A stretch of 64,000 nt of DNA from Sulfurovum sp. TSL1 (GTDB lineage: Bacteria > Campylobacterota > Campylobacteria > Campylobacterales > Sulfurovaceae), in the NCBI RefSeq assembly GCF_019972135.1, contig NZ_BPFI01000001.1, positions 231,106 to 295,105 of the forward strand, in the 5' to 3' direction. A program made the position numbers and the translations under genes. Below are positions 24,547-39,171 of the stretch, piece after piece. Under the pieces are notes generated by a model. It did not search any database, was not told the DNA's origin, and saw nothing but the letters and a program-made list of their open reading frames with translations. Position 1 is the first letter of the stretch. The number at the start of each line of letters is the position of its first letter.

Positions 24547-25332
24547 TCAACCGCATTTACCGGGCGCACATTTCATACCGTTAAATTGTCCTGTCAGTGT
24601 ACCATCGGTACTTCCTTCATGCATTTTATCCATTCTTTCTTTCATCATTTGCGGATGTGCGATGAAGTTGTAGCCTTTGTAAAGTGTGATCCCCCCATAG
24701 AGAATAACAAAGAGAGAAGCCAGCTTCATCATGGTACCTCGGAGGGAGCCTTTTTGTAAGATCTTTGTGAGGAAGCCTAAAAAGAAAAGTGCGGGGATGG
24801 TCGCCAGCCCGAATGTCGCCATCACCAAAGCACCGGAAATGGGATCAGCGGTACTTGCCGCAAAAATAGCAAAAGAGTAGACAAGTCCACAAGGGATGAT
24901 ACCATTGAGCAATCCCAAAAGATAAAAGCTAAGATAGGATTTGTCCGACATGAGTGCTCTAAAGCTGTTTTGATACCAGGCATATTTGGAAACAGACCAT
25001 TCAGCAGAATTCAGAAATTTGAGATTTCCTATAAGAGAAAGACCTGCGAGTATCATCAGCATACCTGTGATGAGAAAAAGTATCCCTTTGGTAGTAGGTG
25101 TAAAGGCGACCACTTGCCCCACATAGCCAAATAGAGCACCCAAGATCGCATAGGTCGTGACACGTCCAAAGTTATAGGCCAAGTGTGCAGCTGTTTGTTG
25201 CAGATAACTTGTTCTTTGATCTATTTTTGTAGAAGAGTATGCAACAACGATCCCGCCACACATACCAATACAATGTCCAACACTTCCTAAAAAAGCGGTT
25301 GTTAAGATAATAATTAAATCTATATTGCCCAT
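24547..25332 (-). CDS. DsbD_2 / TauE-SafE-like membrane protein with C-terminal MKCAPGKCG tail
   Basis: 261 residues, about six membrane segments in two halves. The first half carries GSVGHCIGMCGGIV, a cysteine motif of DsbD_2-type proteins that in many bacteria accompany cytochrome oxidase and copper-handling genes. The second half carries LLNGIIPCGLVYSFAIFA with a conserved ProCys. The last 40 residues are polar and end in MKCAPGKCG, a motif also found twice in the copper-operon lipoprotein at 30958-31332. That suggests metal binding by the tail, although this is inference. Convergent with the M48 gene, 3 bases between stops. Confidence 0.83.
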   Translation of the reverse strand: MGNIDLIIILTTAFLGSVGHCIGMCGGIVVAYSSTKIDQRTSYLQQTAAHLAYNFGRVTTYAILGALFGYVGQVVAFTPTTKGILFLITGMLMILAGLSLIGNLKFLNSAEWSVSKYAWYQNSFRALMSDKSYLSFYLLGLLNGIIPCGLVYSFAIFAASTADPISGALVMATFGLATIPALFFLGFLTKILQKGSLRGTMMKLASLFVILYGGITLYKGYNFIAHPQMMKERMDKMHEGSTDGTLTGQFNGMKCAPGKCG

Positions 25333-27407: not shown

Positions 27408-28079
27408 ATGAGTAAAATATTATTGTTGGAAGATGATGCCAACCTGAATGAAACGGTCACAGAATTTCTGGAAGACAAGGGTCATGATGTGGTAAATGTC
27501 TATGATGGATATGAGGCACAGGAAAAATTGTATGAGAGCAAGTATGACCTGCTTCTTTTGGATGTCAATACGCCAGGTATGAATGGCTTTGAACTTCTCA
27601 AAGAAGCCAGAGAGAATGATGTGGTGGCACCGGCTATTTTTATCACTTCTTTGGATTCGCTGGATGATCTGGAAAAAGGATTCGAGAGCGGATGTGATGA
27701 CTACATACGGAAACCGTTTGCGCTCAAAGAACTACAGATACGTGTGGAGACACTGCTTAAACGAGCTTTTTATCATGAGTCTAAAGAGTTGATAAAGATT
27801 GCAAAAGATATTGCTTATGATATCAAAAATAATGAACTGATCATCAACGGTAAAACGGTATCTTTGGGACATAAAGAGTCTCTGCTTCTTAAACTCTTTA
27901 TGAAAAATGAGGATGAGGTCATTGTTCATGAACGCATCTATAAACATTTATGGGATTTTGATGAAGAACCTAGTGATACGGCACTCCGTACGTATATCAA
28001 AAATCTTCGTAAAATCATAGGTAAGGAAAGAATTGTCAGTATTAAAAAACAAGGCTACAAATTCACTGCTGAGAAGTGA
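27408..28079 (+). CDS. OmpR-family response regulator
   Basis: 223 residues. Receiver domain with the acidic pair E8/D9, phospho-acceptor D52 (in LLLLDVNTPG) and K near 102 (YIRKPF), followed by a winged-helix DNA-binding domain from about residue 125, ending in IVSIKKQGYKF. The start abuts the trxC stop without a clear ribosome site, so it is probably translationally coupled. The histidine kinase follows in overlap. Confidence 0.93.
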   Translation: MSKILLLEDDANLNETVTEFLEDKGHDVVNVYDGYEAQEKLYESKYDLLLLDVNTPGMNGFELLKEARENDVVAPAIFITSLDSLDDLEKGFESGCDDYIRKPFALKELQIRVETLLKRAFYHESKELIKIAKDIAYDIKNNELIINGKTVSLGHKESLLLKLFMKNEDEVIVHERIYKHLWDFDEEPSDTALRTYIKNLRKIIGKERIVSIKKQGYKFTAEK

Positions 28080-29223
28080 GAAAAAATCTCTTTTGAGATT
28101 TTTGACACTCTATGTGGCCATGGTCATATTTCTGATCACACTGTTATCACTGTTTTATTATCAAAGTCAGGAAAAACTGATGCTTTCTGACCAGCGGGCG
28201 ATGTTGACAAAGTATGCCTATATCCAGACAAGAAGACTTAAAGTACTGCATCATTTTTTTCCTGAAAGAACAGAATATCCTCGTGATCCCCGTTTCAGAT
28301 CAGCTATTTATGACTTGGAACATATGAAAATATTTTCATTACTGGAAGATGAAAATGTGCGTTTTGATGCAGAAGAGATATATATTACGAATAGTCATAT
28401 ACATTTAGTGAAAATGCTGGATGAGTTTTATCTGGGGACCAAATACCTTATCATAGAAGTAGAGGACAGCGGTGCATGGAGAGGGGAGATATGGACAAAT
28501 ATCATCACTTACGGTATGGCTGTTTTTATCTTTTTTATGCTCTTTGGACTCTATCTTGCTAAACTGTTTTTAAAGCCAATGCGGGATTCCATTGTACTCT
28601 TAGACAGGTTTATTAAAGATACGACGCATGAACTCAATACACCGCTCTCTGCGATACTGGCTAACATAGAGATGATGGATACCGATGTAATGGTAGAGAA
28701 AAATAAGACCAAACTGGCACGCATCAACATTGCAGCCAAAACGGTTTCAGTTCTCTACAAAGATCTCACGTATCTCATGTTGGAAGAAGAGAAAGAGAAC
28801 CACGATGAAGAGATTGAGATCAAAGAACTGATCCATAACAGGGTAGAGTATTTCTCTGTTTTGGCACAGTCAAAACATATAGCGTGTGATCTGGATCTGG
28901 AAGAGGCGACTATTATAATGGATAGACGTAAATTTACCAGAGTGATAGACAACCTGATATCCAATGCGATCAAATATAACAAACGTAACGGTACCATAGG
29001 CATAAAATCGAGAGAAGGGTTGTTGGTTATCTCGGATACAGGTATAGGTATCAATGAAGAAAAAATACCTTTTATGTTTGATCGCTATATGAGATTCAAC
29101 AGCAGTGAAGGCGGTTTTGGTATCGGTCTGAGCATCGTGAAAAAAATAGTGGATGAATATCATATCTCAATAGAGGTTGAGTCAAAAGAAGGAGAGGGTA
29201 CAAAAATGGTGTTACGATGGTAA
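28033..29223 (+). CDS. Sensor histidine kinase
   Basis: 396 residues from a TTG at 28033 that overlaps the regulator by 47 bases; a shorter start at the TTG at 28093 is also possible. Two membrane segments (about 22-42 and 155-180) enclose a periplasmic sensor region of about 110 residues. The phosphorylated histidine is H199 in the H box (TTHELNTPLSAI). The ATPase domain has NLISNAIKYN, DTGIGI and GGFGIGLSIV. The signal is unknown. The next gene encodes a small c-type cytochrome and overlaps by 7 bases, so sensing may relate to respiration. Confidence 0.92.
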   Translation: MSVLKNKATNSLLRSEKKSLLRFLTLYVAMVIFLITLLSLFYYQSQEKLMLSDQRAMLTKYAYIQTRRLKVLHHFFPERTEYPRDPRFRSAIYDLEHMKIFSLLEDENVRFDAEEIYITNSHIHLVKMLDEFYLGTKYLIIEVEDSGAWRGEIWTNIITYGMAVFIFFMLFGLYLAKLFLKPMRDSIVLLDRFIKDTTHELNTPLSAILANIEMMDTDVMVEKNKTKLARINIAAKTVSVLYKDLTYLMLEEEKENHDEEIEIKELIHNRVEYFSVLAQSKHIACDLDLEEATIIMDRRKFTRVIDNLISNAIKYNKRNGTIGIKSREGLLVISDTGIGINEEKIPFMFDRYMRFNSSEGGFGIGLSIVKKIVDEYHISIEVESKEGEGTKMVLRW

Positions 29224-29664: not shown

Positions 29665-29988
29665 ATGAAAAGAATAGTCACTGTACTTAGTCTTGTTGCA
29701 TTTGCAATGGTTAGTACGCCTACAGTCGCATCAGCGAGTGTAAAAAAAGGTCAAAAAATATACAAGAAAAAGGTGAGAAAATACTGTGGATTCTCAGGTG
29801 TGAGATTTGCAAGACACCATAATCAGGATGAGTGGGAAGAGATCTATGATGATGGTGAATTCTCAGCAGAAATGAAAAAAATTTGTCCTAAATTACCTTT
29901 AAATAAAATTAAAAAATCATGGTGGAAACATCTGTATGAGTTTACTTATGAGTATGGTGAAGGCGGATCGCACGTTCCAAAGTGTTAA
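29665..29988 (+). CDS. Periplasmic cytochrome-like protein lacking a haem motif, copy 1
   Basis: 107 residues with a signal peptide (to about residue 24). The mature protein begins SVKKGQKIYKKKVRKYCGFSG, which resembles the start of a class I cytochrome c, but where CxxCH would be there is only C41GFSG. Cysteines C41, C74 and C107 are shared with the next gene, as is H52. It is probably a disulfide-bonded protein derived from, or only resembling, a cytochrome. Ribosome site AAAGGAAG. Confidence 0.75.
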   Translation: MKRIVTVLSLVAFAMVSTPTVASASVKKGQKIYKKKVRKYCGFSGVRFARHHNQDEWEEIYDDGEFSAEMKKICPKLPLNKIKKSWWKHLYEFTYEYGEGGSHVPKC

Positions 29989-30105: not shown

Positions 30106-30423
30106 ATGAAGACTACAACTAAATTAGCAGTTGCTGCTTTACTTGGTATGACATTACTTTCATCAACTGCATCTGCAGATGTGAAAAAAGGTCAAAAAAT
30201 TTATCTTAAGAAGCTTAAAGCTCCTTGTGGATTCAATGGTGTTAAGTTTGCACAATCACATACGCAAGATGAGTGGGAAGCGATCCATGAAGCTGGTAAA
30301 TTTGAGGATGAAATCAAGAAAATTTGTCCAAAAGTAAAAAAATTCAAAGCAAAATATATTCCAGATGTATATGATTTTGCATATGAATATGCAAGCGATT
30401 CAGGTAACGTACCGTCTTGTTAA
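30106..30423 (+). CDS. Periplasmic cytochrome-like protein lacking a haem motif, copy 2
   Basis: 105 residues with a signal peptide ending at SADVKK. It is a clear paralogue of the preceding protein: DVKKGQKIYLKKLKAPCGFNG, then HTQDEWEAIHEAGKFEDEI, then KKICPK, with cysteines at 41, 74 and the last residue. Again no CxxCH. A TATACT -10-like box is at 30073-30078, and its own terminator follows, so it is probably transcribed alone. Confidence 0.78.
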   Translation: MKTTTKLAVAALLGMTLLSSTASADVKKGQKIYLKKLKAPCGFNGVKFAQSHTQDEWEAIHEAGKFEDEIKKICPKVKKFKAKYIPDVYDFAYEYASDSGNVPSC

Positions 30424-30957: not shown

Positions 30958-31332
30958 TTACATACTGCTTCCGCATTTTCCTGTTTCACATTTCATTGTG
31001 GGTATCTCTTTCTTGGGTGCTTTTACGGTATTGTCTGTTGAACATTTTGTGCTCAGTCTCCCGGTTTCTTTGACACGTACACAATCATAGATCTCTTTCG
31101 TTGTTAAGGCTTTCAGTACACATTCCCGTCTGTTATCCTCTTGTGCAAGCTGGCTTAAGATATTCATTTTCTTTTTTACCAGTAAGGCAGAACCATCCAC
31201 CATACTTGCCCCACATTTTCCCGGACCACATTTCATTCCATCTTCTGTTAAGTTATCTGTTTTATCTTTATCTGTACATCCTGACAGAAGTGATAGTGTG
31301 ACAAGCAGTGTAATCGTCAGCTTTGATCTCAT
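30958..31332 (-). CDS. Small lipoprotein with two MKCxxGKCG motifs, copper-operon member
   Basis: 124 residues. Lipobox LLSGC puts the acylated cysteine at position 19. The motif MKCGPGKCGASM follows at about residue 33, and MKCETGKCGSSM closes the protein; between them is a helical region with two further cysteines. It overlaps the end of cusA by 4 bases (ATGA), so it is the last gene of the efflux operon, where one would expect the chaperone CusF. No CusF fold is evident. A periplasmic Cu(I) or Ag(I) binding role is inference. The GKCG core resembles that of bufferin/HvfA-type copper-binding peptides. Confidence 0.78.
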   Translation of the reverse strand: MRSKLTITLLVTLSLLSGCTDKDKTDNLTEDGMKCGPGKCGASMVDGSALLVKKKMNILSQLAQEDNRRECVLKALTTKEIYDCVRVKETGRLSTKCSTDNTVKAPKKEIPTMKCETGKCGSSM

Positions 31333-34300
31333 TTGGTCTCCTTAAGCTCTTTTAACTGATATTTCTCATACATTTCATAAAAAATAGGGATGAGAAAGAG
31401 GCTGAGTATAGCGGAACTGACTAGACCTCCTATCATCGGTGCAGCGATACGTTGCATGACCTCACTTCCTACCCCCGACGTGTACATGATAGGCAGAAGT
31501 CCCATCAGGATCGCAAAGACGGTCATGAGTTTGGGTCTCACTCTTTGAACGGCACCTTCATAAATAGCATCGGAGAGATGTTGAGTGTTAAATTGTTTCC
31601 CCATTTTTTGATGCATCGCTTCGACACTTTCTTGTAAATAGACGATCATGACTATGGCTGTTTCTGCAGCAATTCCCAGAAGTGCCAGGAAACCGACTAT
31701 CACTGCAATACTCATATCGAACTGTAATAGATAGAGGTAGATTATACCGCCTAGCAGGGCAAAAGGCAGTGTACAAAATACAATAAGGGTAGGTACGATT
31801 TCTCCCAACGCAAAATAGATCAGGATCAATATCACTAACAGTACAACAGGCACGATCCATTTTATTTTTTGCATAGCCGAGTGAAGGTATTCTGACTGTC
31901 CTTCCCATTCCAGATAATATCCGGGAGGGAGATGTATATCTTTTAAAACTTTAACGGCCTCTTCTTTGTATTTGACGGCACTTACGCCTGTTTGTGGCGT
32001 AATATAGATGAAAGTTACCGGTGTTGCCATCTCACTTTTGATCACAGAGGGACTCTCTTTGTATATGACAGTGGCAAAAGTAGAAAGCGGTACAAATCCG
32101 AGTGGTGTTTTGACCGGTATATTGCGTATATCATCAAGATTTCGACGCTCTTCCTCTTCAAAACGCAGTGCGATAGGGTAACGTTCCAAACCTTTATACA
32201 TGGTAGTGATCTTTTTCCCACCTATTGCTGCAGATGTATAGTCATCGATCAGTGACTTGGAAATATTATAACGCTGCAGCGCCTCGGTATCTATGTTGAT
32301 ATCTATGAAATATCCTGCACTTGCCTGATCAGAGAAAACTGACTGTGTCCCTTTAAGTGCACGAAGTTTTGACTCGATCTGCATGGCTACAGATTGCAGC
32401 CCCTGTGCATCTTTCCCATAGAGTTTGATACCCAGGGGGGTTCTGATACCTGAGAGTAACATGTCAATACGACCACGTATAGGGTAGGTCCATGAGTTCA
32501 CAAGGCCAGGTACCTGGAGGGCTTCTTCCATTTCCGCCATCAGTTTTTCATAGGTCATCCCTGCGCGCCATTGTGATCTGGGTTTAAAGGTAATGATGGT
32601 TTCGATCATACCAAGAGGGGCAGGATCTGTGGCTGAATTGGCACGTCCTCCCTTACCGAACACCGTATCAACTTCCGGAAAACTTTTAATGATCTTATCG
32701 GTTTTCTGTGTCAGTGCTTTGCTTTGATCCACTGAGATACCATACGGTGTTACAGGCATATACATAACGGTTTGCTCATTGAGCATAGGCATAAATTCCC
32801 AGTTTAATTTTTGGTAAAGAGGGAGTGAAAATGCAAGTCCGCCAATAGCAAGAAAAATAACGAGGTATTTGAATTTTAAAGCATGGACCAGAAGTGGATG
32901 ATACAGCCAAATAAAAAAACGATTCAGCGGGTTTTTTGATTCGGGTATGATCCTTCCTTTGATGAAATATATCATGAGTACAGGTACCAGTGTGACAGAG
33001 AGTATCGCTCCTGCTGTCATTGCAAAGGTTTTTGTAAAAGCAAGGGGGTTAAACAGTAACCCCTCTTGACCGGAAAGTGCAAAGATGGGCAAAAAAGAGA
33101 CGACCACAAGTGCCAGGGCAAAAAAGATAGGACGTCCTACAAGTTGAGAAGATTGAATGATGGTTTTGATACGCTCATCATTCTTCAGAGGTTCACCATG
33201 TTCTTTGGTTTTTTTATGTATGGCCTTATGTGTATTTTCTATCATCACGATAGAAGCATCTACCATGGCACCGATAGCGATAGCGATACCTCCCAGACTC
33301 ATAATATTAGAGTCAATGCCAAAGATCTTCATCAGTAAAAATGGGAGGGCTATGGTTAAGGGGAGTACGATGAGCATGATAAGTATGGAACGAAAGTGCA
33401 TCAAGAATAGACCAATGACCAGGATCACGATGATACTCTCTTCGAATAATGTCGTTTGAAGTGTTTTGATCGCTGATGCTATCAGCCCTGAACGGTCATA
33501 GGTCGTAACAACGTTCACATCTTCTATTTGGAGTTCTTGCATTTTGGACTTGATACGTTTTATGACCGAGTATACATCTTCCCCATACCGTACCATGACG
33601 ATACCTCCGACCACTTCTCCCTCTCCATTGAGGTCAGCCAGTCCGCGTCTGGCACTTGGGACCCTCTCTACACGTCCCACTTGAGAGAGAGTCAGAGGCA
33701 CACCGTTTTTGGTCGTCACGACAAGTTGACGTATCTCATCCAGATCTTTGATATAGCCTTTGGCCTGTACCATCCATTCATAACCGTTTTGAATGACGAT
33801 GCGTCCACCTGTGTCATTATTGTTCTCTTTGAGTGTTTTAGAAATATCCTTGATAGAAAGATTGTACTGGACCAGTGCATCATTGTTCACCGTAATCTGA
33901 TACGTTGGTACAAATCCTCCTATACTGGCTACTTCACTCACCCCGTCCACACCCATCAGCGCGTATTTGTAGTAGTAGTCTTGAATCGTTCGCAGTTCAT
34001 CAAGGGTCTTTGTTTGAGAGGTCAGTGCATATTCGTATACCCATCCTACACCTGAAGCATCAGGTCCAAGGGTGACTTCCATCGTATCTGGAAGCTGACT
34101 TTGTATGGATGCAAGCTGTTCAAGTACACGGCTTCTTGCGGAATAGAGGTCTGTACCTTCTTTAAAGATAATGTAGATCAGGGCAGTTTCATAGGTTGAA
34201 AAACCGCGGACGGTTTCAATATCCGATATCGCAAGAAATTGTGAAACCAGTGGATAGGTTCCCTGCTCTTCGATGATCTCCGGGCTTTGTCCTTTCCATG

Positions 34301-34454
34301 TAACCTGTACGATGACCTGTGGAGGTGAAAGGTCCGGCAGGGCATCCAGGGGGGTATTCCTCATGGCCCAAATGGAACCTATGATGAGGAAGAGCGTGGT
34401 CATAAGGACAAGAAAACGATTTTTAGCCGAAAATACGATAAGTCGTTCTATCAT
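31329..34454 (-). CDS. cusA: Copper/silver efflux RND pump, CusA type
   Basis: 1041 residues, full length. Heavy-metal RND signatures: DALPDLSPPQVIVQV near the N-terminus, TLGPDASGVGWVYEYAL, and a charged membrane helix around GGIAIAIGAMVDASIVMIEN. The three methionines that bind Cu(I)/Ag(I) in E. coli CusA have counterparts here, in MYMPVTPYG, APLGMIETI and RIDMLLSG, so monovalent copper or silver is the likely substrate rather than zinc or cobalt. It exports metal from the periplasm in complex with CusB and a TolC-type channel, driven by protons. Confidence 0.95.
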   Translation of the reverse strand: MIERLIVFSAKNRFLVLMTTLFLIIGSIWAMRNTPLDALPDLSPPQVIVQVTWKGQSPEIIEEQGTYPLVSQFLAISDIETVRGFSTYETALIYIIFKEGTDLYSARSRVLEQLASIQSQLPDTMEVTLGPDASGVGWVYEYALTSQTKTLDELRTIQDYYYKYALMGVDGVSEVASIGGFVPTYQITVNNDALVQYNLSIKDISKTLKENNNDTGGRIVIQNGYEWMVQAKGYIKDLDEIRQLVVTTKNGVPLTLSQVGRVERVPSARRGLADLNGEGEVVGGIVMVRYGEDVYSVIKRIKSKMQELQIEDVNVVTTYDRSGLIASAIKTLQTTLFEESIIVILVIGLFLMHFRSILIMLIVLPLTIALPFLLMKIFGIDSNIMSLGGIAIAIGAMVDASIVMIENTHKAIHKKTKEHGEPLKNDERIKTIIQSSQLVGRPIFFALALVVVSFLPIFALSGQEGLLFNPLAFTKTFAMTAGAILSVTLVPVLMIYFIKGRIIPESKNPLNRFFIWLYHPLLVHALKFKYLVIFLAIGGLAFSLPLYQKLNWEFMPMLNEQTVMYMPVTPYGISVDQSKALTQKTDKIIKSFPEVDTVFGKGGRANSATDPAPLGMIETIITFKPRSQWRAGMTYEKLMAEMEEALQVPGLVNSWTYPIRGRIDMLLSGIRTPLGIKLYGKDAQGLQSVAMQIESKLRALKGTQSVFSDQASAGYFIDINIDTEALQRYNISKSLIDDYTSAAIGGKKITTMYKGLERYPIALRFEEEERRNLDDIRNIPVKTPLGFVPLSTFATVIYKESPSVIKSEMATPVTFIYITPQTGVSAVKYKEEAVKVLKDIHLPPGYYLEWEGQSEYLHSAMQKIKWIVPVVLLVILILIYFALGEIVPTLIVFCTLPFALLGGIIYLYLLQFDMSIAVIVGFLALLGIAAETAIVMIVYLQESVEAMHQKMGKQFNTQHLSDAIYEGAVQRVRPKLMTVFAILMGLLPIMYTSGVGSEVMQRIAAPMIGGLVSSAILSLFLIPIFYEMYEKYQLKELKETK

Positions 34455-35479
34455 TAGTAGATCCCGTGTATCTGAGCATCGGAGTCCATCATGAAGAGTG
34501 CATTGTTCACCAGTGTATCTCCCTCATTCAGCCCTTTTATAATTTCATAATGTTTCGCGTCTAAAGATTTGATCTGAATGACCACAGGTTCATACTCTCC
34601 TTTAAATTCAGTTACAAGAAAAGCATACCACAGTCCATTTTTGCGTATAGCTGCAGTACGAGGTATAACAAGATGACTTGCCGCATCGGCTGAGGCATAT
34701 ACTTTTGCATACATGCCCGGTTTTAATACAGTATCTTCATTGTCAAGTTGAAGTCTTAATGTGGCTGTTGCTTCTTTTGGGTCCAGCTCGGGGTAAAGAA
34801 AGTTTTTTTTGGCTGTATATGTTTTCGAAATACCTTTGGCATTGACCGTAAAATTTGTAAGGAGAGGCAGTTTCTCTATCTCATCCTGATAGAGTTTGAC
34901 CTCTATCCATACTTTGTCCAGATTGACGATCTGAAAGAGCTTTTTTTGTGGGTTGAAAGAGGCACCTTCATTAATATTTTTTTCAAATATCCACCCGGAC
35001 TGTGGTGCATAGATAGTTGTGAACTCATCAACCTTACGTTCAGTGTTGATACGTTTGATCTCTTCATCATGTACACCCAAGAGACGCAGTTTGGTTTCCG
35101 CACTCTGAAGCATTTGAGGTGAGGGGTGCTTTTCATTGAACTCCAAAGAGTGTAAGTAGTCCTGTTTGGATTTGTATACTTCCGGAGAATAGACATAGGC
35201 CAAAGCATCTCCTTTTTCTACTTTTTTATAGAGTGTATCAGCAAACAGTTTTGTGATATAGCCTGAAAACCATGCATGTACATCTATCTTTCGTGAGTCC
35301 TCCGCAACGATATATCCGTAGTTGATCTGCTCCTTGGAAGCAGTCATTTTTTTTACTTTTACTGTCTTCACACCGAAAAGCTGTTCTATAGTGGGAAGAG
35401 AGCTATTGTGTTCCTGAGAGAATAAAAAAATCGGGATCAGTAAAAGTGTGATCGTTGTTTTTATATGTATGGATACCAT
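34454..35479 (-). CDS. cusB: Efflux adaptor, CusB type
   Basis: 341 residues with an N-terminal signal or anchor segment. Family markers are the segment WFSGYITKLFADTLYKKVEK, then YVYSPEVYKSKQDYLHSL, and the beta-barrel part near KPGMYAKVYASADA. It is shorter than E. coli CusB (407) and lacks an obvious methionine-rich N-terminal metal site. It overlaps cusA and cusC by one base on each side. Confidence 0.92.
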   Translation of the reverse strand: MVSIHIKTTITLLLIPIFLFSQEHNSSLPTIEQLFGVKTVKVKKMTASKEQINYGYIVAEDSRKIDVHAWFSGYITKLFADTLYKKVEKGDALAYVYSPEVYKSKQDYLHSLEFNEKHPSPQMLQSAETKLRLLGVHDEEIKRINTERKVDEFTTIYAPQSGWIFEKNINEGASFNPQKKLFQIVNLDKVWIEVKLYQDEIEKLPLLTNFTVNAKGISKTYTAKKNFLYPELDPKEATATLRLQLDNEDTVLKPGMYAKVYASADAASHLVIPRTAAIRKNGLWYAFLVTEFKGEYEPVVIQIKSLDAKHYEIIKGLNEGDTLVNNALFMMDSDAQIHGIY

Positions 35480-36672
35480 TATATTTCACCTATAAGAGAT
35501 TTTAGTTGTGCCTGTGTTCGAAGGTATTCGGCTTTGATGGAGATACGTTGTTCTTCCAGGTCCAGTTTTTGTTCCAGTAGATTGGTGTAAGCAAAAAGGT
35601 CACCTCCGCTTTGAATACCCGATTGACTCAGTTCGATCATATGTTCAAGCTGAGGCAGGCTTTCATTTTGGATAATGTGATAGATCTGGTAGGCTTCAGT
35701 GAGTTTGGCATACATCACAGTAATTTCACTTTCCAAAGAGGATCTGTAGTCTAACGAAGCACATGCAGCAGCAAGGGCTTCCTTGCGTGCAGCTTCAGCC
35801 TGATGCTCTTCTGAACCATATAAAGGTAGAGAGACCCCCACTGTCACAGAGGCATAATCAGGAAATTCCTGACGGTTGTAATAGCCTACATTCACATAAG
35901 GGTCAGGTGCCATATTTAGCTCTTGTATGACTTTGTTCGCCTCTGCGATATGCTGCTCAGAGAGTTTCATATGGTAATTTAGATTGTTCTGTGACCTGGA
36001 AAGATAACTTTCCAATGATCCGGGACGTTTGATCTCCAATGGATCAGATACCCTGGAGACCTCACCTTGTACAAGGTATTTGAGTGTAGTCTGCTGGTTC
36101 TTCAAGATCATCTTATAGCGTTCATATTTTATTTTTATTTTGGCGAGCATCAAGCTTGCAGCCATACTGCTGGTATGACTTCTATTCTCAGTAGATGCAT
36201 AGGAGGTATAGAGATCTATATTCTGTTTGGCGACAGCTTTATAGCGGTTGACAACGCGGATACGTGCTTCAATCTCTTTCATGCTATAGGATGTCATGCG
36301 TATCTCTTTAGCCAGTGTGATCTTGGCTGCTTCATAGGAGTCCAATATCAGACTTTTTTGTGCTGTCGTAAAGTTTTTTCTTGCATCGAGTTTGCCGAAC
36401 CATGGAAATTTTTGCTTTACATTGATAGCATTGAACTGCATAGGTTCAAGACCACGGTCCGAAGGATGATCAAACTGTATGTCATTGATGGTCAAAGAGA
36501 TATCCGGGTTGGAGAAGTTCTGACTTTCATCTATACGTTCATCCATGGCAGAAAGGCGGTGCTGGATAGTCTGGAGTGAAGGGTGCTTTTTAAGTGATTG
36601 ATCGATAAGTTGTTGAATACTTTCTGCCTGCAGTACTCCTACAGTCCATAAAGTAAAAAGAATGATGCGCAT
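35479..36672 (-). CDS. TolC-family outer-membrane channel of the Cus efflux operon
   Basis: 397 residues, signal peptide ending near VLQAES, then the helical barrel pattern SLKKHPSLQTIQHRLSAMDE and a beta segment with VNVGYYNRQEF. First gene of the operon, with GGGAG before the ATG. It probably forms the outer channel for CusAB, as CusC does, though similarity to CusC itself is not provable by eye. Confidence 0.88.
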   Translation of the reverse strand: MRIILFTLWTVGVLQAESIQQLIDQSLKKHPSLQTIQHRLSAMDERIDESQNFSNPDISLTINDIQFDHPSDRGLEPMQFNAINVKQKFPWFGKLDARKNFTTAQKSLILDSYEAAKITLAKEIRMTSYSMKEIEARIRVVNRYKAVAKQNIDLYTSYASTENRSHTSSMAASLMLAKIKIKYERYKMILKNQQTTLKYLVQGEVSRVSDPLEIKRPGSLESYLSRSQNNLNYHMKLSEQHIAEANKVIQELNMAPDPYVNVGYYNRQEFPDYASVTVGVSLPLYGSEEHQAEAARKEALAAACASLDYRSSLESEITVMYAKLTEAYQIYHIIQNESLPQLEHMIELSQSGIQSGGDLFAYTNLLEQKLDLEEQRISIKAEYLRTQAQLKSLIGEI

Positions 36673-37050: not shown

Positions 37051-37509
37051 ATGTCTCCAAGTTGTCCGATATCTACAAGAAGAATCGACGCCAATATGGT
37101 AAGAATGATCTCTTTTCAAGTAGCACTTTTTACATTCATATTTTTGATCACTCAAGAAAGCTCTTTTGCATGGGTCATACTCTTTGATTTTTTGATGAGA
37201 GCATTACGTTTCTCAGGCTTCAGTCCATTTCAGATGATTGGAAAGTTCGTACTTAAGGGGTGGGGGGTTGCACCTAAACTTTGTGATGAATCACCAAAGA
37301 GGTTCGCTCTCTATCTGGGGTTGGTCACTTCGTTGTTCATTGTGCTCTTCTATTTTGCGGGCTTTACACTATTTGCTACTCTGTTAGCGGTTATTTTATT
37401 AATTTGTGCATTACTTGAGACATTATTCGATTTTTGTATAGGATGTAAGCTATACTACGCAATACAAATCGGTAAAGGTCTTTTAGGAAATGATAGGAAT
37501 ATCCAGTAA
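37051..37509 (+). CDS. DUF4395 membrane protein
   Basis: 152 residues from the ATG at 37051, preceded by AAAGGAAAG. The N-terminus CPISTRRIDANMVRMISFQV and the later KGWGVAPKLCDESPKRFAL, with about four hydrophobic stretches and a CIGCKLY motif, match DUF4395. The function is unknown; in other bacteria such genes often sit near thioredoxin-like or sulfur-handling genes. It overlaps the Rrf2 gene by 20 bases. Confidence 0.82.
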   Translation: MSPSCPISTRRIDANMVRMISFQVALFTFIFLITQESSFAWVILFDFLMRALRFSGFSPFQMIGKFVLKGWGVAPKLCDESPKRFALYLGLVTSLFIVLFYFAGFTLFATLLAVILLICALLETLFDFCIGCKLYYAIQIGKGLLGNDRNIQ

Positions 37510-37903
37510 AACAATCTATGCGATCGCTGCACTTCAGGAGTTGGGTTCCATTCCCGATGATAAAGTTCTCAAGATAAAAGAAATAGCAGCCAATGCATCC
37601 ATTCCGCAAAACTTTTTGGAACAGATACTCTTAGAACTGAAAAAACAGGGGCTTCTTACCAGCATCAAAGGTGCACATGGCGGATACAAACTGGCAAAAA
37701 GCCTCAACGATATCACGCTTAAAGATGTGGTGCTTATTCTGGAGTCAGATATATTTGCTGACAACTACCAAACAGATAGCCAGGCACTTAAACTCTTTTG
37801 GGATGATATTAAACAAAAAGTCTCGGCGGTGTTCGAGATCCCATTGTCTGAACTGAAGAACTATCAACTGAAAGCCAACCAAATACTAAATTATTCAATA
37901 TAG
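37490..37903 (+). CDS. Rrf2-family transcriptional regulator without cysteines
   Basis: 137 residues. The N-terminal winged helix is typical (SKTIYAIAALQELG, then IPQNFLEQILLELKKQGLL, then KGAHGGYKLAKS). There is no cysteine anywhere in the protein, so it cannot hold the iron-sulfur cluster of IscR or NsrR. That points to the CymR-like branch, which controls cysteine and methionine metabolism with a partner enzyme. The trans-sulfuration gene 8 bases downstream supports this. Confidence 0.9.
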   Translation: MIGISSKTIYAIAALQELGSIPDDKVLKIKEIAANASIPQNFLEQILLELKKQGLLTSIKGAHGGYKLAKSLNDITLKDVVLILESDIFADNYQTDSQALKLFWDDIKQKVSAVFEIPLSELKNYQLKANQILNYSI

Positions 37904-37911
37904 GGACAAAG

Positions 37912-39171
37912 ATGAACAATACCACTGATTTTGACTATTTCAATACCTTGCTTGTCCAAAGTGTAGGTTCCAAGGTAGGACCCATTGCACCTACGATCAC
38001 CCCGTCCGCTGCCTATGGTTACGAAAATGCTGAAGAAGCAGAAGGTATCTTTGCTGCCCAGGTCAATAAACCACTCTATGCAAGAGTAGGAAATCCGACA
38101 AATGCCAAACTGGAAGCTATCGTAGCGAAGATGGAAGGCGGATTTGGTGCCATTGCCACCTCTTCAGGTATGGGTGCGATCTCGATGGTATGCAGCGCTT
38201 TTTTATCTGCAGGAGATGAGTTGCTCTGTATCGGCGGTTTCTTTGGTGGCACCTATTCACTTGTCAATGAAACTTTGGCACGTTTTGGTGTGAAGAACAC
38301 TTTTTGTACCGTAGACGATTTTGAACATATTGAAGCAACACTTCAGCGCGGTATCAAGATGGTGCTTTTTGAGTCTGTAGGGAATCCAAGCCTTACACTG
38401 CCTGATATACAGCGTATCATCGATCTTTGTAATCAGTATGAGACATTGGTCATGATAGACAATACTGCGACACCGCTTTTGGTCCGACCACTGGAGATGG
38501 GAGCGGATATCTCTGTGCACTCTTCAACGAAAAATATGTCCGGACATTCGGCTGCACTCGGTGGTATAGCTGTTTTCAGAGCAGTAAAAGAAGAGGGTGA
38601 TAAACTGATGAACCCGAAATATGCCGATGTACACAAAATAGTCAAAAAGATGGGAGAAAAAGCATTTATACCTATCTGTAAAAAACGTGCCATTCGTGAT
38701 TTCGGTATGACTGCCAATGCCTTTGGTTCATTTATGACCATGATAGGACTGGAAACACTCTCACTCAGGGTAGAGAGGATCAATAAAAGTGTCGAAACAG
38801 TCGCAGCATTACTGGATGAAAAACTGCCTGAGGGGGTGAGTGTAAACCACCCGTCATTGGCATCAAGCCCTGATCATGAACGATACAAGTCAGACTTTGC
38901 ACAGGGCTGCGGTCCGTTGCTCAGTATAGACTGTGGAACAAAAGAGCGGGCTTTTACGTTTCTGAACAAACTGAAGTATGTGATACAAACAGCAAACATT
39001 GGGGACAATCGAACACTTGCACTGCATATGACAAGTACTATCTATAGTGATTTCAATGAAGAAACCCGTAAATTTCTGGGTGTCCATGAAGGGTTGATCC
39101 GTGTTTCCATAGGTTTGGAAGATCCTAAGGTCATTGCAGAGGACTTTTTACAAGCAGCGAATGCATTGTAA
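37912..39171 (+). CDS. PLP-dependent trans-sulfuration enzyme (MetY/MetZ/MetB type)
   Basis: 419 residues. It has the Cys/Met-metabolism PLP fold: RVGNPTNAKLEAIVAKMEGG, MIDNTATPLLVRPLEMGADI, and the PLP-binding lysine in HSSTKNMSGHSAALGG. Members make homocysteine from O-acetyl- or O-succinyl-homoserine and sulfide, or cystathionine with cysteine. In a sulfur-rich setting a direct sulfhydrylase is most likely, but the exact substrate cannot be read from the sequence. It is likely controlled by the adjacent Rrf2 protein. Confidence 0.88.
   Translation: MNNTTDFDYFNTLLVQSVGSKVGPIAPTITPSAAYGYENAEEAEGIFAAQVNKPLYARVGNPTNAKLEAIVAKMEGGFGAIATSSGMGAISMVCSAFLSAGDELLCIGGFFGGTYSLVNETLARFGVKNTFCTVDDFEHIEATLQRGIKMVLFESVGNPSLTLPDIQRIIDLCNQYETLVMIDNTATPLLVRPLEMGADISVHSSTKNMSGHSAALGGIAVFRAVKEEGDKLMNPKYADVHKIVKKMGEKAFIPICKKRAIRDFGMTANAFGSFMTMIGLETLSLRVERINKSVETVAALLDEKLPEGVSVNHPSLASSPDHERYKSDFAQGCGPLLSIDCGTKERAFTFLNKLKYVIQTANIGDNRTLALHMTSTIYSDFNEETRKFLGVHEGLIRVSIGLEDPKVIAEDFLQAANAL

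Follow-up and report, generated by a model that had tools for sequence, protein, structure and literature searches.

A Cus-type copper pump operon of Sulfurovum sp. TSL1 ends in a Cys-tagged predicted lipoprotein, a possible copper partner in place of CusF

The window, a stretch of 64,000 nucleotides from Sulfurovum sp. TSL1 (contig NZ_BPFI01000001.1, positions 231,106 to 295,105), was confirmed to carry a four-gene minus-strand operon in the order cusC-cusB-cusA-cusX. Its cusC/cusB and cusB/cusA junctions each overlap by 1 base, and the lipoprotein gene, here called cusX, is joined to cusA by the 4-base overlap (31329-31332) given in the preliminary description. The genes and sites considered here are as follows.

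35479..36672, minus strand: cusC, outer-membrane channel, 397 aa (Pfam OEP, PF02321)
34454..35479, minus strand: cusB, periplasmic adaptor, 341 aa, lacking an N-terminal metal-binding domain and a Cys tag (HlyD_D23)
31329..34454, minus strand: cusA, RND pump, 1041 aa (TIGR00914; E. coli CusA alignment)
30958..31332, minus strand: cusX, predicted lipoprotein, 124 aa, two MKCxxGKCG tags, without Pfam family
32757..32759, minus strand: CusA Met566, taken as E. coli Met573 (alignment)
32607..32609, minus strand: CusA Met616, taken as E. coli Met623 (alignment)
32460..32462, minus strand: CusA Met665, taken as E. coli Met672 (alignment)
31276..31278, minus strand: CusX lipobox Cys19 (LLSGC), invariant in 33 of 33 aligned rows, window included
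31210..31236, minus strand: CusX N-terminal tag MKCGPGKCG, residues 33-41 (motif search, alignment)
30970..30996, minus strand: CusX C-terminal tag MKCETGKCG, residues 113-121 (motif search, alignment)
24547..25332, minus strand: DsbD_2-family membrane protein with C-terminal MKCAPGKCG, near the pump in several relatives
27408..28079, plus strand: response regulator (Response_reg, Trans_reg_C)
28033..29223, plus strand: histidine kinase partner (HATPase_c, HisKA)

Response regulator and histidine kinase genes are found at 24 of the 31 named cusX loci having at least 4.2 kb downstream, and the response regulator at 27408-28079 is a candidate regulator of the cus operon. Additionally, the same genome has a second cusCBA-lipoprotein operon (L008), an addition to the earlier account, in which the lipoprotein is 71% identical, the 4-base overlap recurs and CusB has the N-terminal tag.

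The window CusA scores 1018.6 bits against the CusA/CzcA family model TIGR00914 (cut-off 701.45), and its residues 1-1029 align with E. coli CusA (3t51/3k07) at an E-value of 2.4e-285. All three E. coli substrate methionines have counterparts, as had been claimed, in Met566, Met616 and Met665; the E. coli residues we take to be numbers 573, 623 and 672, which fit the alignment offset. With its tripartite RND architecture, methionine triad and CusB adaptor, the system resembles E. coli CusCFBA, and from its sequence a Cu(I)/Ag(I)-type efflux pump is expected. In contrast to CusCFBA, however, no CusF was detected and the four-gene operon ends in a Cys-tagged lipoprotein. In the window genome, no PF11604 (CusF) match rose above the cut-off (best 12.1 bits against 27, with the E. 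coli control detected), and the same holds for all 150 family genomes, a profile search being liable to miss a very divergent CusF. The absence of CusF claimed earlier thus stands on this search, and a hidden CusF elsewhere in the genome was likewise not found by it.

CusX has a lipobox, LLSG-Cys19, from which lipidation is predicted. The genome has 12 copies of KCxxGKC and 0 of a reversed-pattern control, so the motif is not due to chance. No Pfam family was matched by CusX at E<=0.01. The helical core between the tags is conserved, Cys71, Cys84 and the pattern KK..N..Q..D.R.CV being invariant. Two alignments were used: A1 holds 26 of the 34 CusX matches, truncated, interrupted and near-duplicate rows having been dropped, and a few of its rows start at codons within the signal peptide; A2 holds the window protein and 32 of the 39 named loci (L063, L070, L071, L081, L089, L090 and L091 excluded, L071 because the stretch taken for it crosses a stop). 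In the AlphaFold2 model (mean pLDDT 63.0, pTM 0.42), confidence is limited to the helical core (about residues 50-90), and the tags are disordered, as would be expected of mobile carriers. A fold cannot be claimed for CusX, as a PDB fold search with the model gave nothing at E<=0.001 and the single match from a sequence-profile search against the PDB was at chance level (E 1.4).

Co-occurrence of the lipoprotein with CusA in relatives had been proposed as a check, and it was found to be widespread. At 34 of the 37 testable named loci (39 found), cusA lies directly upstream of cusX on the same strand. Moreover, CusX is present in 29 of the 31 family genomes, out of 150, whose CusA is at least 77% identical; in the other two the contig ends within CusA. 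Two loci (L087, L088) have cusX with no pump gene nearby. Two genomes from a different family, G157 and G185, have cusX placed after a copper-ATPase-type gene. Passages in PMC6715271 and PMC6235853 describe E. coli CusF as receiving Cu(I) from CopA and passing the ion to the N-terminus of CusB; cusX is thus found beside genes of both E. coli CusF partners.

CusB adds a further link between lipoprotein and pump. Among relatives, a C..GKC motif lies near the N-terminus in 30 of the 33 CusB proteins examined, or 28 of 31 after removal of duplicates (going by the length of their contigs, L138, L139, L216 and L217 repeat L074, L077, L056 and L061); the fragments L053, L054, L075 and L208, and proteins below 40% identity, do not enter this tally. 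Where a portion of PMC6235853 places Met21/36/38 at the N-terminus of E. coli CusB, most relatives have a Cys tag; it sits at the very end where E. coli CusB accepts Cu(I) from CusF. Unlike these relatives, the window CusB gave no C..GKC match, a point that extends the earlier account. Its alignment with E. coli CusB begins only at residue 29, just past the signal peptide, and the N-terminal metal-binding, chaperone-docking domain is absent from it in that alignment. The Cys tag of CusB is also missing in G122, G126 and L142-L144.

The duplicated Cys motifs noted earlier are indeed present in CusX as two tags, yet that description understated them, since the tag recurs at the ends of many copper-related proteins. 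It caps NosL, PCuAC, CrdA/YtkA, DsbD_2 and cytochrome c proteins too, and occurs on unrelated copper proteins that have no pump. When 19 tagged proteins were scanned against Pfam, 15 matched families above cut-off, including PCuAC, NosL (2), YtkA (2, CrdA-like), HMA and cytochrome c (4). Among tagged proteins of at least 140 aa, 53 of 55 motif copies lie near a terminus. The tagged loci were mostly picked with a Met-led pattern, which biases the leading Met; the tally of 86 tagged frames includes orthologues and at least one spurious short frame (L108), and 5 members of the 103-match set appear unrelated (G181, G242, G274, G324, G393), one crossing a stop codon and four being one identical site. 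Small KCG-rich secreted proteins similar to GKCG-repeat peptides also stand alone in the window genome.

The linkage and the shared tags suggest a copper hand-over route unlike that of E. coli CusF. At about even odds (roughly 0.5), the operon encodes a Cu(I)/Ag(I)-type CusCBA in which CusX, not CusF, is the periplasmic copper partner: a membrane-anchored, largely disordered protein with a small helical core and two terminal tags, which would take up Cu(I) and hand the ion to the pump. On the best reading, CusX would bind Cu(I) via unmodified thiolates and feed or buffer the pump; binding, direction of transfer and a role in resistance are what we infer from linkage and motifs. The paired tag cysteines (CX4C with flanking Met) may capture Cu(I) reaching the periplasm, part of which may come from a CopA-type ATPase, and the flexible tethered tag would then pass the ion to the pump by thiolate exchange. 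In most relatives, Cu(I) would move from CusX to the same tag near the CusB N-terminus; in the window operon, whose CusB is tagless, it would go more directly to the methionine sites of CusB/CusA. The lack of the proposed acceptor tag in the window CusB counts against a donor role. So does a possible outer-membrane location: by the E. coli sorting rule, an Asp after the lipid Cys decides the membrane, the residue after the CusX Cys is not Asp, and a CusX in the outer membrane would be far from CusA. For the earlier claim that the lipoprotein stands in place of CusF, the cusA linkage, the N-terminal motif of CusB and the copper-ATPase-type neighbour in two genomes speak in favour; substitution is not proven because no CusF turned up anywhere in the family draw, with or without CusX. 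If true, this arrangement would be a second solution to copper delivery for RND pumps, in a family without detected CusF.

More broadly, MKCxxGKCG could be a portable tag that relays Cu(I) in unmodified form. In Campylobacterota that lack MNIO, a motif known from thiooxazole copper peptides would have been added at the termini of many copper proteins facing the periplasm (CusX, CusB, NosL, PCuAC, CrdA, DsbD_2-type proteins and cytochromes c), copper would move between tagged partners by like-for-like thiolate exchange, and CusX would be a tethered hub feeding the Cus pump. This extension is offered tentatively, the balance being against it. Were it right, a motif annotated as an enzyme-modified RiPP could serve, or could have begun, as a plain end tag.

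Several other explanations of CusX have to be weighed. A membrane-bound copper buffer explains the CusX data nearly as well as a donor does, and we regard it as possible though somewhat unlikely. On this view CusX would be a sponge akin to metallothionein or bufferin that keeps free Cu(I) in the periplasm low; it would share expression with the pump but make no specific transfer to CusBA. Part of PMC13097082 proposes that GKCG-repeat peptides sequester copper stochastically, and the solitary small KCG-rich proteins, the two cusX genes without a pump and the tagless window CusB fit a sponge; but the cusA linkage and the tag shared with most relatives' CusB indicate a specific partnership, and two or three tags per protein make for a low sponge capacity. 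CusX might instead be a sensing, gating or assembly factor that activates CusB/CusA or anchors the complex, with transfer being secondary. The conserved core exceeds the needs of a tether, and metal loading of E. coli CusB is described in a section of PMC6235853 as activating the pump; however, the most constant parts of CusX include the Cys tags, which are also borne by pump-less copper proteins, and a gating role is unlikely. A CusX unconnected with copper, serving for instance in redox or envelope maintenance and placed after cusA through the history of the operon, would suit its thioredoxin-like and cytochrome c neighbour genes. Its repeated linkage to two kinds of copper exporter and the motif it has in common with PCuAC, NosL and CrdA-like proteins make this quite improbable.

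A further candidate is a RiPP metallophore of the HvfA/oxazolin type, in which the GKCG cysteines are enzymatically converted to thiooxazoles. HvfA, oxazolin and Buf_EGKCG captophorins share with CusX the GKCG motif, an export signal and a link to copper, and in genomes with an MNIO enzyme a close form of the CusX motif is what the enzyme acts on. A gene for a small Cys-Gly-repeat protein adjoins the enzyme at all 15 MNIO loci above cut-off that were scanned. In addition, CusX gives a weak match of 15.8 bits to the HvfA-type NCBIfam model NF050137 (cut-off 19.5). Captophorins are made with MNIO, whereas no PF05114 (MNIO) match at E<=1 was found in the window genome, controls being detected, and CusX as an MNIO-modified peptide was therefore rejected for this genome. 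MNIO and CusX occur together in 0 of 150 family genomes. MNIO was likewise not found in 36 of the 37 genomes with the Met-led motif, a near-absence due in part to the pattern, which does not pick up the Met-less KCGAGKCG of MNIO precursors. Unlike in captophorins, the motif in the window genome is not confined to small Cys-rich proteins but also lies close to the termini of larger ones. A metallophore is thus very improbable for CusX. For comparison, an excerpt of PMC13097082 reports an 8 Da loss for two repeats in a modified GKCG peptide. As regards annotation, the HvfA model passes its cut-off on a CusX relative (L120, 34 bits), though the genome of that relative, G185, is not among the MNIO-positive ones.

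Other pumps also have small metal-binding partners. The periplasmic silver-binding proteins SilE and SilB are soluble and Met/His-based, in contrast to the lipidated Cys tags predicted for CusX. The likeness lies in a small protein serving a Cus-like pump, as a portion of PMC8686694 describes. Closer in lineage, H. pylori CrdAB-CzcBA likewise joins a campylobacterotan RND copper pump to a small secreted partner, and there crdA comes first in the gene order. CusX differs from CrdA in being encoded last, Cys-rich, a predicted lipoprotein and without Pfam match. A passage in PMC9182242 characterizes CrdA as CopC-like and Met-rich, without Cys or His; CusX was rejected as its orthologue on the Cys content and the missing Pfam match. 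According to an excerpt of PMC10092412, neither cusA nor cusB was copper-responsive in Nitratiruptor, a campylobacterotan without CusF, so protection from copper in this phylum does not have to rest chiefly on a Cus pump. In place of CusX, a CrdA-type protein occurs in some sister lineages, and in G004, G051 and G077 CrdA-like (YtkA) genes adjoin pump genes. Of the 150 family genomes, 17 have strong matches to PF13115 (CrdA-like; E<=1.2e-18, next best 2.6e-11), and these share no member with the 31 genomes that have CusX, a pattern that is phylogenetically confounded and fails outside the family, where G157 has both proteins. The window genome has a weaker PF13115 match alone, of 42 bits, in a 183-aa frame.

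The copper pump of the window is encoded by a single operon of four tightly overlapping genes, the last of which specifies a lipoprotein here named CusX:

36672-35479, minus strand, cusC, first gene of the operon
35479-34454, minus strand, cusB, second gene
34454-31329, minus strand, cusA, third gene
31332-30958, minus strand, CusX gene, last gene, encoding a 124-aa lipoprotein

Judged from its sequence, CusA clearly belongs to the CusA/CzcA family of pumps. In a sequence alignment, the methionine triad of E. coli CusA falls on Met566, Met616, and Met665, and thus the pump keeps counterparts of all three residues, as the preliminary description had stated. The residue numbers of the E. coli triad are consistent with the alignment offset. 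The alignment of the window CusB with that of E. coli starts only at residue 29, immediately past the signal peptide, and the protein is therefore without the N-terminal metal-binding domain present in E. coli CusB. The genome (2.35 Mb, six contigs, completeness 99.94) carries a second cusCBA-CusX operon (C2, locus L008), whose CusX and CusA are 71% and 83% identical to those of the window.

CusX has the lipobox LLSGC and two tags of the form MKCxxGKCG, namely MKCGPGKCG (residues 33-41) and MKCETGKCG (residues 113-121), with a conserved middle part between them. Every row of a 33-row alignment (the window and 32 relatives) has Cys19, Cys35, Cys40, Cys71, Cys84, and Cys115, and at least 90% of the rows have Cys120. 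In an AlphaFold2 model built on 33 sequences, confidence is confined to the helical part at about residues 50-90 (helices predicted at 47-61, 68-74, and 78-85), the tags being disordered, and a fold search of the PDB with this model found no match. Gene order, CusA triad, and tags together confirm the earlier observation of an operon with a lipoprotein behind the pump genes. Its duplicated Cys motifs are likewise present, but the motif also occurs in many other proteins.

CusX is present in 31 of 150 sampled family genomes and, by profile search, in 12 of 298 class genomes from three of 58 genera, G287 giving a partial match only. By hand count, 39 named CusX loci are labelled Sulfurovum (28), other Campylobacterota (10), and Lutibacter (1). 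The proposed association with CusA is borne out in these relatives, as 34 of the 39 loci have cusA immediately upstream, in the same orientation; two others start within CusX and are uninformative. No upstream cusA was seen in L087 (621 bases of upstream DNA), L088 (6991), and L090 (144 only), the first two carrying solitary CusX copies. A CusA at least 77% identical occurs in 31 of the 150 family genomes, and 29 of these also have CusX (counted by hand). In the two without it, G130 and G132, the 3' end of CusA falls at a contig end; conversely, G118 and G144 have CusX and no such CusA. In another family, CusX immediately follows a copper-ATPase-type gene in G157 and G185, while it stands behind cusA in G334, G414 (with a 284-base gap), and G418. 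The ATPase-type protein of G157 has an HMBD and an E1-E2 ATPase domain; that of G185, of 724 aa, was assigned to the type by its DKTGT motif and a similar N-terminus. Additionally, a 4.3-kb contig of a Lutibacter MAG (L070, DQTL01000212.1) shows a Sulfurovum-like CusX neighbourhood, with cytochrome c 87% and kinase 72% identical, and is probably mis-binned.

The reported lack of CusF holds for the genome, where no PF11604 match exceeds the cut-off of 27 bits (top score 12.1; E. coli control detected), and for all 150 family genomes, with one sub-threshold match (G046, E 0.009). CusF is likewise missing in Nitratiruptor, another campylobacterotan, according to PMC10092412. The absence of CusF thus extends beyond the presence of CusX. 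The same paper reports no response of Nitratiruptor cusA and cusB to copper, which argues against assuming a Cus pump to be the main copper defence of the phylum.

In E. coli, the segment that accepts Cu(I) from CusF is the three-methionine N-terminus of CusB (PMC6715271 and PMC6235853), and CusF is reported to get Cu(I) from CopA (PMC6715271). The tag motif lies close to the N-terminus in 30 of 33 CusB proteins from relatives' operons (28 of 31 after removal of two likely duplicate contigs), with several copies in two; L142-L144 are without it. CusB of G017 has a variant, MQCGAGKCG. The motif is absent from CusB of the window and of its two closest relatives, G122 and G126, while CusB of the second operon has it both in this genome and in G126. 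Since the CusX gene adjoins counterparts of the CusF acceptor and, in two genomes, of the CusF donor, and since the acceptor shares the motif, CusX may act as a copper donor; adjacency and shared motif are the main argument for this inferred role. A lipoprotein handing Cu(I) to the pump is plausible and is strengthened by co-occurrence and shared tag, although every functional step is inferred and a mere copper buffer would account for the data nearly as well.

CrdA-like proteins, resembling the small partner of the H. pylori pump (strong PF13115 matches), occur in 17 of the 150 family genomes, none with CusX, and their genes adjoin pump genes in G004, G051, and G077. The G004 protein ends in MKCASGKCGSAM, that of G384 starts with the tag, and G157 has a CrdA-like protein and CusX together. 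As CrdA-like genes lie beside the pump in some lineages and CusX in others, the small companion of the pump differs by lineage, some companions being same-tagged.

The shorter motif KCxxGKC has 12 copies in the genome (reversed control, 0): two in each of the two CusX, one in the second-operon CusB, one each at the C-termini of a Fer4_5/NapH-like and a DsbD_2-family membrane protein, three in an 86-aa protein that has a hydrophobic segment at its N-terminus, and one each in an 88-aa lipoprotein-like and a 103-aa secreted-like protein adjoining a DoxX-like gene (labels by eye). The longer DNA pattern MKCxxGKC was found in 37 of 298 class genomes, with 103 matches (summed by hand; five appear unrelated) against one in the control, yielding 86 open frames with the motif. 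Among 19 tagged frames scanned with Pfam, 15 were over the cut-off, one NosL just under, and three without match; the families were YtkA (2), PCuAC, NosL (2), HMA, DsbD_2 (2), Fer4_5, DUF4395, EF-hand, and cytochrome c (4). The 45 frames of at least 140 aa hold 55 copies, of which 35 fall within 25 residues of the C-terminus, 18 within the first 75 residues, and two outside both regions. Searches of open-licence PMC papers gave none that describes this tag for pump, NosL, PCuAC, or CusB proteins.

Several tagged proteins deserve individual mention. The Fer4_5/NapH-like membrane ferredoxin protein (L004, 94-1593; at ~17 kb on C1) ends in MKCTAGKCGASMKNQ. NosL-like proteins of L155, L157, L169, L134, and L166 carry MKCxxGKC at about residue 22, just past the signal peptide (L157 and L169 called by similarity to L155; L166 under the Pfam cut-off). 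PCuAC copper chaperones of L150 and L151 (G418, G334) end in MKCGSGKCGK, L151 being identified by similarity.

In the copper peptides made by MNIO, the Cys-modifying enzyme of PF05114, the substrate motif is the GKCG repeat (PMC13097082 and PMC12452194). A PF05114 search of this genome gave no match at E<=1. MNIO was over the cut-off in 13 of 298 class genomes and in three of 150 family genomes, CusX occurring in none of the three. Only one of the 37 Met-led-motif genomes has it, G207, where MNIO and motif adjoin. All 15 over-cut-off loci (class and family draws) have, beside MNIO, a gene for a small protein that repeats Cys-Gly motifs, mostly KCGAGKCG. Part of the separation arises because most MNIO precursors are without a leading Met and are missed by the Met-led pattern. 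With Met-less motifs beside MNIO and tags without it, closely similar motifs occur in one phylum in two settings, as probable MNIO substrates and as end tags. Enzyme-less motif proteins are already known in principle, as PMC12452194 (Table 3) reports that 67 of 2583 Buf_EGKCG genomes have no MNIO and calls such cases rare; fusions of bufferin and EGKCG domains with other domains are also mentioned there. A cluster at L175, 8688-10070 (at ~1.68 Mb on C1), with Cys-rich small proteins, a secreted-like KCG protein, a DoxX-like gene, and a GMC-type oxidoreductase (by eye), resembles an HvfA cluster; the genome is without detectable MNIO.

Around the operon lie the following features:

24547-25332, minus strand, DsbD_2-family membrane protein with C-terminal MKCAPGKCG
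29665-29988, plus strand, 107-aa secreted-like protein
30106-30423, plus strand, related 105-aa secreted-like protein, both with KKGQKIYxKK...CGFxG...QDEWE
37490-37903, plus strand, Rrf2-family regulator, divergent from cusC, matching CymR (cysteine metabolism) below threshold
37912-39171, plus strand, 419-aa protein after the Rrf2-family gene, resembling a PLP-dependent Cys/Met enzyme (by eye)

That the Rrf2 and PLP genes might tie thiol supply to Cys-tag proteins is only a thought. Downstream of CusX, convergent genes encode a cytochrome c, the two small secreted-like proteins, a 110-aa protein, a histidine kinase, a response regulator, and a thioredoxin-like protein. The 105- and 107-aa proteins have no Pfam or NCBIfam match, and many named loci encode them next to the pump. 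Of the 31 named loci whose sequence extends 4.2 kb or more downstream, 24 also contain the kinase and regulator, and this two-component system is a candidate regulator of the operon. The tagged DsbD_2 gene, past the convergent genes and on the operon's strand, is present in nine of the 22 that extend 6.9 kb or more. Similarly tagged DsbD_2 homologues are found again in relatives, several near the cus operon.
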